From positions 1,979-37,695 of the forward strand of contig MHIM01000013.1 in the NCBI GenBank assembly GCA_001817505.1: a stretch of 35,717 nucleotides of DNA. The letters are read 5' to 3'. Of the stretch, positions 1 through 5,085 are shown piece by piece. The notes beneath the pieces are model-generated. The model did no database searches. It saw nothing but the letters and a program-made list of their open reading frames with translations, and was not told where the DNA came from. Made by a program: the position numbers and the translations under genes. The DNA is from Candidatus Buchananbacteria bacterium RIFCSPLOWO2_01_FULL_39_33. GTDB lineage: Bacteria; Patescibacteriota; Patescibacteriia; 2-01-FULL-39-33. Positions within the stretch are counted from its first letter, which is position 1. Each line of letters opens with the position of its first letter.

Positions 1-50
1 TTCAAAAAACAAATCTTTTTATATTTTATATAGAGCTCTTTTGGGATTTT
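1..50. repeat. Left terminal inverted repeat of unit A
   Basis: Two blocks are exactly complementary to sequence on the far side of the 261-codon gene: 1-17 pairs with 992-1008, and 32-50 pairs with 962-980. The short spacers between the blocks (18-31 and 981-991) are unrelated. The repeat may extend left of the window. The inner block contains the self-palindrome AGAGCTCT. Confidence 0.85.
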
Positions 51-1083: not shown

Positions 1084-1183
1084 GGACAACACCGAATAAA
1101 CGGAAAAGTCCTCGGCTCGGACTTTTCGCAAATTTTTCTTCGCTACGTTTCAGAAAAACTTCGTTTATTCGGATACGTTATAA
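1084..1183 (+). repeat. attC-like palindromic site A
   Basis: GGACAAC (1084-1090), one spacer base, arm CCGAATAAACG (1092-1102), its exact complement at 1162-1172, spacer ATAC, then GTTATAA (1177-1183). Inside is a hairpin GGAAAAGTCC-loop-GGACTTTTC with loop TCGGCTC; the same loop occurs in site B. Conserved outer AAC/GTT boxes around a non-conserved palindrome are the hallmark of integron attC sites. The outer box only loosely fits the RYYYAAC consensus. Confidence 0.6.
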
Positions 1184-2109: not shown

Positions 2110-2272
2110 GCCTAACAAAGAATAAAAGGAAAATGCCTCGGCTCGGCATTTTTCCAAATCCCGCACCGATTATGATATGATAGAGCTAGTGCATTTTAAC
2201 AAGTTTTGAGGATAAAATAAGTTTTACGCATGAATACGGGCGCGGGACTTCTTTTATTCTTAAACGTTATAT
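2110..2272 (+). repeat. attC-like palindromic site B
   Basis: GCCTAAC (2110-2116, perfect RYYYAAC), arm AAGAATAAAAG (2118-2128), exact complement at 2251-2261, spacer AAAC, then GTTATAT (2266-2272). Inside are a hairpin with the TCGGCTC loop shared with site A and a further TCCCGC/GCGGGA pairing. GCCTAAC is the exact complement of GTTAGGC at 1232-1238, the other end of the unit. That is what a single excisable integron cassette should show. Confidence 0.65.
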
Positions 2273-2829: not shown

Positions 2830-3459
2830 ATGGCCAAACGCCTAGGCGAAACAAGCTACAAAGAAACAGCTTTTGGCATTATCCCACGATCAAAACTTAT
2901 TCTTCTGGAAATTGAAGGAATTACAAGAGCGTGGGATTTTGTTTTAAAGAAAAAGATCAAAAATAAGCTTCCTCTCACTCCGAACTTTCTTAAAAAGATT
3001 CATGAGATCGGTTTTGGTTGGATTTTTCCCGAGTTGGGCGGAAAATTTAGAAAAATTGATGTCACCGTTTCCAAACATATTCCTCCAAAATTTTATCTTG
3101 TGCCGCAGGAAATGGATAATTTTACCAAAGACCTAAAAATCAGAATAAAACATTTACCTAAGATAGACGACGAAAAATTTATTAACGAATTAATTTCTCT
3201 TTTGTCGTGGTCGCATCATAAATTTCTTTGGATTCATCCATTTCATGATTACAACGGCCGTATTGGCAGATTACTGATTAACATTATTTTGCTAAATCTA
3301 AATCTTCCGCCAATTGAATTAAAAGTAGAAACATCTGCTGGCAGAAAAAATTATGTTAAAGCGTTGCAATTAGCCGACAATCATAATTACACAAAATTAG
3401 AAAACATTTTTAAATCAGCCATAGATGAAATGGTGAAAGAATTGAATTCAAAAAAATAA
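2830..3459 (+). CDS. Fic/DOC family protein, 209 aa
   Basis: The Fic signature is present at residues 136-147: HPFHDYNGRIGR, against the family consensus HxFx(D/E)GNGRxxR. The catalytic His and the final NGRxxR are kept, but the first Gly of the anion-binding GNGR is Tyr. A flap-like segment (KFYLVPQEM) precedes it. Near the N-terminus EIEGI (residues 27-31) aligns with the inhibitory SSxIEGI helix of class II Fic proteins, with the serine replaced by leucine. Most Fic proteins transfer AMP to hydroxyls of target proteins; the Tyr substitution makes the activity uncertain. The gene closes unit C, and its last codons overlap the right inverted repeat. Length is normal for a single-domain Fic protein. 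Confidence 0.85.
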   Translation: MAKRLGETSYKETAFGIIPRSKLILLEIEGITRAWDFVLKKKIKNKLPLTPNFLKKIHEIGFGWIFPELGGKFRKIDVTVSKHIPPKFYLVPQEMDNFTKDLKIRIKHLPKIDDEKFINELISLLSWSHHKFLWIHPFHDYNGRIGRLLINIILLNLNLPPIELKVETSAGRKNYVKALQLADNHNYTKLENIFKSAIDEMVKELNSKK

Positions 3460-3515: not shown

Positions 3516-3611
3516 CGATAACAGCGTGTATGCGGTTCGTGCTTGGCTCCGCTAAATACTCTCCCATATCCGCTTAAGTCGGCGGACATCGCATACACGC
3601 GAACGTTATGA
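3516..3611 (+). repeat. attC-like palindromic site C
   Basis: CGATAAC (3516-3522), one base, arm GCGTGTATGCG (3524-3534), exact complement at 3590-3600, spacer GAAC, then GTTATGA (3605-3611). The layout (AAC, one base, 11-bp arm, centre, arm, four bases ending in AC, GTTAT) matches sites A and B although the arm sequence differs. Confidence 0.65.
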
Positions 3612-3650
3612 CGTCATCGCTTCGCTTTCGGCGTCATAACGGCGGCGCCT
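3605..3650 (+). repeat. Hairpin adjoining site C
   Basis: GTTATGACGTC (3605-3615) pairs with GGCGTCATAAC (3630-3640) with one mismatch, followed by GGCGGCGCCTA. Nearly identical to 1177-1222 after site A, so it is a second copy of the same add-on. It ends about 25 bases from the DGR template repeat. Confidence 0.6.
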
Positions 3651-3675
3651 AAAATAGTTCGGGGAGAATAAAAAG

Positions 3676-3778
3676 ACTGGCGGACGCCGCCGAACCACCA
3701 GTTGTCATTCCAGTCGTTGTCGTTGCGGTTGACGTTCACGTTGCGCTCATCGTTATTGCGGTTGAAGGCGGCGTAACA
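3676..3778 (-). other. DGR template repeat (TR)
   Basis: Read on the minus strand, 103 bases match the variable repeat at 4147-4252. All 15 substitutions are at TR adenines (A to G, C or T), and none of the 77 non-adenine positions differ. One codon is missing relative to the variable repeat. AAC and GAC codons are concentrated where the variation occurs, as in known TRs, and the last 26 or so bases are invariant, as expected of an initiation-of-mutagenic-homing region. No ATG-started frame covers it. It lies downstream of the target gene on the same strand, the usual order. The reverse transcriptase that normally follows is absent; a different cassette lies there. Confidence 0.9.
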
Positions 3779-4033
3779 AGCGGAGAAATATGCAACGCAT
3801 TATCTGTGCCACTGCCCCTTGAATACTCTTGAGGCTGTATTTTATTTGGGATTTTTAAATCCACCAATGCGTTGCGCCAAGTATTTTTATTTTTCAAATA
3901 ACGGAAAACACTCTAACGGCAACGTATTGCCGATTATTCCGGTTTGCCCGTTATCCCAGAGTTCAACCGCCTGCAGCCGTAACCGCAGACTGTGTCGTTT
4001 ACTATCCAAAATTATTTTACCACATTTTTTGTT
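3779..4033 (-). ncRNA. Probable leader of the TR transcript
   Basis: A gene-free stretch before the TR on the minus strand. It has a 10-bp perfect inverted repeat (3792-3801 with 3866-3875), a smaller GGCAA/TTGCC hairpin near 3918, and a possible promoter with TAAAAT at 4019-4014 preceded by TGTGG and a T-rich -35 region. DGR template RNAs are known to be longer than the TR and structured. The transcript start is inferred. No credible ORF is present. Confidence 0.4.
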
Positions 4034-4086
4034 ATAAAAAAATATCCCCACACCTTCTTCCTTGTTTCAGAAAGTTGATGCGGGGA
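4034..4086 (-). terminator. Terminator after the DGR target gene
   Basis: On the minus strand TCCCC-GCA (4086 downward) pairs with TGT-GGGGA across a loop of about 25 bases, followed by ATTTTTTT. It would end the target-gene mRNA before the TR and separate the two transcripts. Confidence 0.5.
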
Positions 4087-4106
4087 CTTGAAACGCAAGT
4101 GACGTA

Positions 4107-4121
4107 AGGACTCTAAGTCCT
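4107..4121. repeat. Small hairpin just downstream of the variable repeat
   Basis: AGGACT-CTA-AGTCCT, a perfect 6-bp stem with a 3-base loop, about 25 bases past the stop codon of the target gene. Some DGRs have a DNA hairpin close behind the variable repeat that helps target recognition. This one is somewhat farther away and shorter than usual. Confidence 0.4.
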
Positions 4122-4144
4122 AAACGCCAAAGTGACTAAGCGCC

Positions 4145-4618
4145 TTACTGGCGGACGCCGCCGAACCACCAGTCGTCATACCAGACGTCGACGCCGCGGC
4201 GGCGGACGTTCACGTTGCGCTCAGCGTCAAGGCGGCCGAAGGCGGCGTAACACCAGTTGCCGTCGGCATCCTTCCAATGGGTGCCGTTGGGATACTCGTC
4301 GGCAAAAGCCGGGTCAGCCTCGTTGACCGCGGCTTGAGCATAAGGATCGGGTACAAGGCCGCGTTCCTCATACGCCTTGGCCACTTCGTCATCGTTGGCG
4401 TTCTTGCCGACCCGGAAGAACTCCATGATGACGTTCTCCTCCACGCCGGTGCCGCCGGATGGCATAGCAGCCACCACGGCACTGTTCGTGTACTGGCGCC
4501 GGCCGGTGGCGTCGAGCACTTGCTGGGGGTTGCGGGTGCGGTCGACTCGATTTACTGTCACCACTACCCTCATTTCTGTTACTTTCACTTCCGTTGATGG
4601 GGTCGATGATGTGTTCAT
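4145..4618 (-). CDS. DGR target (variable) protein, 157 aa
   Basis: The C-terminal 35 residues are encoded by the variable repeat and end WWFGGVRQ. The upstream part has the look of a C-type-lectin-like DGR target: AVNEADPAFADEYPNG, THWKDADGNWCYAAF, then the diversified stretch NVNVRRRGVDVWYDDWW. Variable residues replace Asn/Asp codons of the template, while Trp, Phe and Gly framework residues are fixed. No signal peptide or anchor is visible, so location is unknown. The start at 4618 is chosen because GGAGG lies nine bases upstream; an ATG at 4627 abuts the same Shine-Dalgarno and is less likely. The gene is clearly GC-richer than its neighbours. No Avd or reverse transcriptase gene accompanies it. 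Confidence 0.85.
   Translation of the reverse strand: MNTSSTPSTEVKVTEMRVVVTVNRVDRTRNPQQVLDATGRRQYTNSAVVAAMPSGGTGVEENVIMEFFRVGKNANDDEVAKAYEERGLVPDPYAQAAVNEADPAFADEYPNGTHWKDADGNWCYAAFGRLDAERNVNVRRRGVDVWYDDWWFGGVRQ
4147..4252 (-). other. DGR variable repeat (VR)
   Basis: 106 bases homologous to the TR at 3676-3778. Fifteen of the 26 TR adenines are changed and no other base is. One extra codon (GGC or GTC) sits in the AACGAC-repeat part of the template. The 3' end, from TGGTGGTTC to CAGT, is identical to the TR. Confidence 0.9.
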
Positions 4619-4677
4619 CGGCGTCATCCTCCCTTACTTCTTCTTTACACGAAGTTTGCTAGCGGACTACCACAATA

Positions 4678-4771: not shown

Positions 4772-4781
4772 TCTAATATAC

Positions 4782-4978
4782 CATACATTCTGAATTATGT
4801 CAAATTAGTCAAATAAAATTAAAGATATCCTAAAATTTAGCTAATTTAAACAATATTTGTTGACTAGTTCGCGGCATTCACCCCCAAACCCCTCTGTCGC
4901 TCGCATAAGTGGAAAATCAAATTCTTTATTTAATATAAGAGTATTGGTAAAATGAATATAAGAATAAAAATGTACATC
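4782..4978. other. Gene-free stretch
   Basis: AT-rich except for a GC-richer patch around 4868-4912. I see no ORF, terminator or tRNA in it. Confidence 0.5.
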
Positions 4979-5085
4979 ACACAACATGTTTTAGACGTAA
5001 TCGCTTGGTCGCTTGCGCGATTGACTTTGTCAAATTATATCGCGCCGCGCCCGGCGCGACTCCGCCTAAAACGGAAACGTTTTAT
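4979..5085 (+). repeat. attC-like palindromic site D
   Basis: ACACAAC (4979-4985), arm GTTTTAGACG (4988-4997), complement CGCCTAAAAC (5063-5072, one wobble), spacer GGAAAC, then GTTTTAT (5079-5085). Internal hairpins: TTGAC-TTT-GTCAA (5021-5033) and a perfect 8-bp TCGCGCCG/CGGCGCGA (5040-5059). Confidence 0.5.

Follow-up and report, generated by a model that had tools for sequence, protein, structure and literature searches.

A reverse transcriptase-less diversity-generating retroelement unit with a conserved leader RNA lies in a cassette-like array and may be diversified in trans

We analysed a window of 35,717 nucleotides (C13:1979–37695, the whole stretch under study) from the 973-kb, 97% complete genome of Candidatus Buchananbacteria bacterium RIFCSPLOWO2_01_FULL_39_33, a member of the class Paceibacteria. 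On its minus strand, a unit resembling a diversity-generating retroelement (DGR) comprises a putative promoter, a leader, a template repeat (TR) and a target gene ending in a variable repeat (VR), all lying beside a series of attC-like sites (Table 1). No reverse transcriptase (RT) was found near this unit.

Table 1 Features of the DGR unit and its surroundings (window positions)
Feature	Position	Strand	Evidence or remark
attC-like site	1084..1183	+	scan
attC-like site	2110..2272	+	scan
Fic-domain gene, neighbouring cassette	2830..3459	+	PF02661, E 2.9e-15
attC-like site bounding the DGR unit	3516..3611	+	score 23.5
~50-bp repeat adjoining/overlapping the R' end of the attC-like site	3601..3651	.	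four copies on contig
5' half of the hairpin found after TR in relatives	3652..3675	-	cut at cassette junction; comparison with relatives
Template repeat (TR)	3676..3778	-	reads CYAAFNRNNDERNVNVNRNDNDWNDNWWFGGVRQ in VR frame; 15/15 differences to VR at TR adenines
Whole leader, putative promoter to TR	3779..4013	-	conserved in RT-linked DGRs
Leader RNA core: helix P1 (3876-3866 with 3801-3791) and two inner hairpins	3786..3887	-	covariance model
Putative extended -10 (TGGTAAAAT) of TR transcript	4014..4022	-	conserved element
Target gene, 160 aa, C-terminus diversified, without known domain	4145..4627	-	ORF
Variable repeat (VR)	4147..4252	-	3' end of target gene
Putative target-gene promoter, TTGACA-17-TATATT	4775..4803	-	11/12 consensus matches; consensus match alone
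Weaker attC-like site, far side of unit, tentative	4979..5085	+	score 15.5-18

In the 103-column alignment of TR and VR, which share one orientation, every one of the 15 mismatches falls on a TR adenine; TR contains 27 adenines and 76 other positions, and none of the latter (0/76) differs from VR (hypergeometric P = 4.3e-11 for the adenine-only placement). The adenines are replaced by G (n = 8), T (n = 4) and C (n = 3). An earlier note on this DNA, made from the sequence alone, had located both repeats correctly and reported the same fifteen adenine-confined differences, while giving the unchanged bases as 77 instead of 76 and passing over one extra codon (3 nt) in VR. This insertion is best read as the work of a two-unit CGC repeat that arose by mutagenesis and later gained a third unit, and thus falls outside the adenine rule. 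In a whole-genome comparison, covering the note's suggestion that other genes might match the template, the sole convincing match of TR was its own VR, and VR likewise matched only TR.

VR forms the 3' end of the protein-coding ORF 4627–4145, which agrees with its earlier placement at the C-terminus of a target protein. The description of that protein as lectin-like is not supported: despite a confident structure model (pLDDT 87.6), searches by sequence and by fold returned no match to C-type lectins, and a lectin fold was rejected. The fold search with the model gave no fold match, and a search of viral contigs with the target gave no relative. Homologues were nevertheless found at 44 loci by scanning the genome collection with a narrower target alignment as query, in records named Parcubacteria, Nomurabacteria, Staskawiczbacteria, Paceibacterota and other CPR groups. 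Roughly half of these loci carry leader, TR and RT (whole or in part) directly downstream, and target-leader-TR-RT in cis is likely to be the ancestral order. At one homologue (G201:C15, L043:10556–10664), the leader RNA has an unusually long outer helix and is followed by no TR.

The surroundings of the unit are cassette-like. Six attC-like sites, all pointing the same way and interspersed with small genes, occupy C13:1103–5589 (~4.5 kb), where about 0.1 would be expected from the 21 places (0.022 per kb) that the same scan, a simple purpose-made one and not a curated attC model, marked in 948 kb of related DNA. The DGR unit begins directly after the last strong site and its repeat (3601–3651), and sites of the same orientation lie around it, the one at the far border being a weak match. 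The cassette junction truncates the hairpin normally found 3' of TR. The earlier note had seen an attC-like site and a Fic cassette in the place expected for the RT, and both were confirmed, by the attC scan and by PF02661, respectively. The ~50-bp repeat has a palindromic core and adjoins four attC-like sites (L012 at 1191, 1870, 3153 and 5578); cassette starts are not normally conserved. Separately, an inverted repeat (window 1–50 and 962–1008; arms of 28 and 19 nt, 82% and 100% complementary) flanks a minus-strand ORF at 95–880. Our search for an integron integrase in this genome, in which the contig begins inside the array, yielded Xer-like recombinases only. Integrons do occur in the class, as another genome encodes an integron integrase (G208:C17:2627–3577; 435.6 bits, above the TIGR02249 cut-off). 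A broken integron integrase was also seen in G172:C5.

While the locus itself indeed has no RT, as the earlier note had stated, the genome-wide search for a DGR-type RT and Avd that it proposed recovered both on contig C28. Searches with RVT_1 and with a DGR RT protein gave exactly one RT in the genome (~17099–18178 of C28), the best PDB match of which is the RT of 8ub7 (E 4.6e-44), the BPP-1 DGR RT. Avd (PF22296, above cut-off) is encoded between TR and RT on the opposite strand, and the TR/VR pair of this second locus differs at adenines only (20/20). The cell therefore has the machinery, away from the C13 locus. The target of the C28 DGR (L013:4400–6326) is apparently split by a frameshift into two overlapping frames, reflecting either sequencing error or decay.

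Alignment of the DNA 5' of TR from C13, C28 and RT-linked DGRs of other class genomes revealed a leader of ~250 nt common to C13, C28 and RT-linked Paceibacteria DGRs. It starts with a conserved extended −10, which sits at a similar distance in nearly all compared units. The leader core consists of three helices, with 97.3% of cells paired across 11 sequences and 18 of 20 pairs showing changes on both sides, exceeding all 500 shuffles and all slid controls (35–51% paired); the structure was drawn by hand on the tested sequences, which favours it somewhat. C13 keeps 10 of the 11 P1 pairs (GCAACGCATT with AATGCGTTGC). A covariance model was built from ten RT-linked leaders, C28 among them and C13 left out (G272, misaligned by MAFFT, was excluded). 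Run on the genome, it scored 103.1 bits at C13 (E 9e-21), 91.6 at C28 and 80.4 at C34, the C13 leader fitting the RT-linked model better than that of C28. Identity between the C13 and C28 leaders is 69%, which is no higher than with leaders of other genomes, so that cross-recognition would rest on shared structure. The Rfam families RT-16, RT-7 and RT-11, which are RT-associated RNAs, match at the same place and over the full model length, but every match at the leader sites stays below the gathering score (RT-16 at C13: 32.8 bits, threshold 50) and serves as a pointer only. Being frequent in the class and under every Rfam gathering threshold at the tested loci, the leader RNA could become a separate family.

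The same genome holds a further leader, TR and VR at C34:80240 (3886–4612 of the stretch C34:76000–86000), where 14 of 17 differences fall on adenines. An apparent avd fragment follows, joined to the last RT codons, from which we conclude that an internal deletion probably removed RT and Avd there. In total, the genome has one RT and three TR/VR/leader units (C13, C28 and C34).

Across the class, the leader model matched in 116 of 381 genomes. Among 150 leader matches listed, 95 precede a listed RT by 424–632 bp; the other 55 were read locus by locus (52 stretches and three further loci). Many of these have a weaker or partial RT or a contig border, but in ~20 the stretch is long enough to hold an RT and contains none. 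One RT-less unit (G038:C22; L129, 2139–3460) differs at adenines only (21/21), its genome encodes an RT on another contig, and downstream of its TR lie a terminator-like hairpin and, beyond it, a long tRNA-synthetase-like gene. The pair in G036:C18 is likewise adenine-only (12/12), yet no RT turned up in that genome, indicating that the signature can outlive the enzyme. RT fragments accompany the pairs of G014:C3 (25/26 at A) and G111:C76 (10/10), whereas the RT-less pairs of G128, G077 and G059 are decayed. RT loss by deletion was seen at C34, L166 and G111. Such loss is thus recurrent, and the signature by itself does not tell trans activity apart from an RT that was lost recently. Sorting the RT-less units by whether their genome has an RT elsewhere or none did not separate adenine-only from decayed pairs, and this uninformative split is not used as proof of trans activity. 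Since RT-less TR/VR units recur in the class, the absence of an RT is not what sets C13 apart, which qualifies the earlier note's view that an RT-less TR/VR unit in an apparent gene cassette is unusual; its cassette setting does, the attC array being the part seen only here, with none of the other target loci read lying in such an array.

The DGR module at C13 is thus genuine: it lacks an RT, retains an intact leader RNA and sits in a cassette-like array, in a cell that bears a DGR RT and Avd. The earlier note had offered two options, diversification in trans or separation of the system from its enzyme. Both were apt, and the C28 RT and Avd, the covarying leader and the promoter favour the first. 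We consider it reasonably probable that C13 is a non-autonomous, cassette-borne unit diversified in trans by the resident RT and Avd. In such a scheme, the unit, made up of a promoter, the leader RNA, TR and the VR-bearing target gene and lacking RT and Avd within the attC array, would transcribe its TR RNA from its own promoter; the C28 RT/Avd would recognise this RNA via the conserved leader and copy it with errors at adenines, and the resulting cDNA would replace the neighbouring VR. We infer that the TR is transcribed, that the C28 RT recognises its RNA, that the unit is active today and that the cassette is mobile. In favour of the scheme as a whole are the adenine-only differences, the single DGR RT and Avd in the genome, the close fit and nearly complete P1 of the C13 leader, the promoter-like element before TR, the third, RT-less unit at C34 and the independent G038:C22 unit. 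Metagenomic work has also led to a proposal of trans diversification in another bacterium (PMC10907252). Set against it are the truncated hairpin after TR, the modest identity of the C13 and C28 leaders, the adenine-only pair of G036, a genome that yielded no RT, and the 3-nt VR insertion, which adenine mutagenesis does not explain.

The main competitor, which we regard as distinctly less probable, is a recent relic, i.e. a unit that diversified in cis, lost RT and Avd on becoming a cassette and is now frozen, its signature and leader as yet undecayed. The RT deletions and the decayed RT-less pairs described above, together with the truncated hairpin, are what such a history would leave; yet no non-adenine position has changed, the leader is intact while the genome continues to encode RT and Avd, and no RT/Avd scar lies beside the C13 unit, unlike C34. 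A mixed population, in which other cells keep the RT in cis and the assembly captured an allele with a deletion, has precedent at two loci of Thiohalocapsa PB-PSB1 (PMC10907252), but seems improbable given a clean attC-side junction, and not a deletion scar, in the place of the RT. A decayed gene duplicate or chance repeat unrelated to DGRs can be practically dismissed: TR does lie in the same reading frame as VR, but the differences are confined to adenines, leader, promoter and spacing are as in RT-linked DGRs, and the covarying leader and the homologous target-leader-TR-RT loci already contradict it.

Our preferred reading, diversification of C13 in trans, suggests that separate and possibly mobile units may draw on a common apparatus for targeted gene hypermutation. 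In that case, a single DGR enzyme would serve several template/target units that are independent of one another, and selection would act on the RNA-tagged TR/VR pair as its unit, a pair that could be acquired in cassette form. More tentatively, and with rather less confidence than in trans diversification itself, integron-type cassettes may carry non-autonomous DGR units that pass from cell to cell and work wherever a resident RT/Avd recognises the leader, so that hypermutation would be a modular service shared by such units. In addition to that, the leader model finds RT-less units that RT-centred DGR surveys would miss.

Among known systems, integrase-less cassette arrays (CALIN) resemble the C13 array in their one-orientation attC-like sites with small unrelated genes between them, and differ in that the C13 array harbours a DGR unit, which runs antisense to the attC sites; our literature search found no publication joining the two. 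In Thiohalocapsa PB-PSB1, remote targets without their own RT match the TR of another, complete DGR (PMC10907252), so that there, as here, the enzyme lies elsewhere in the genome; the RT-less unit of C13, in contrast, is equipped with a TR and leader of its own. Cellular DGRs of Patescibacteria/CPR (DGR clade 2, PMC8144416) share adenine-specific TR/VR differences, a target upstream of TR and homologous RT-linked loci in the same class, a likeness in locus features, whereas the C13 locus has neither RT nor Avd and lies in an attC array. With the DGR of the Bordetella phage BPP-1, the system shares RT family, Avd and adenine mutagenesis. The RNA recruiting RT-Avd in BPP-1 is the spacer 3' of TR (PMC12875486), while the conserved RNA of C13 lies 5' of it; given this difference, we infer a role of the leader as a handle for the RT from its position, conservation and covariation. 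The covarying leader accordingly offers a concrete candidate recognition signal 5' of TR, as opposed to the 3' spacer of BPP-1.
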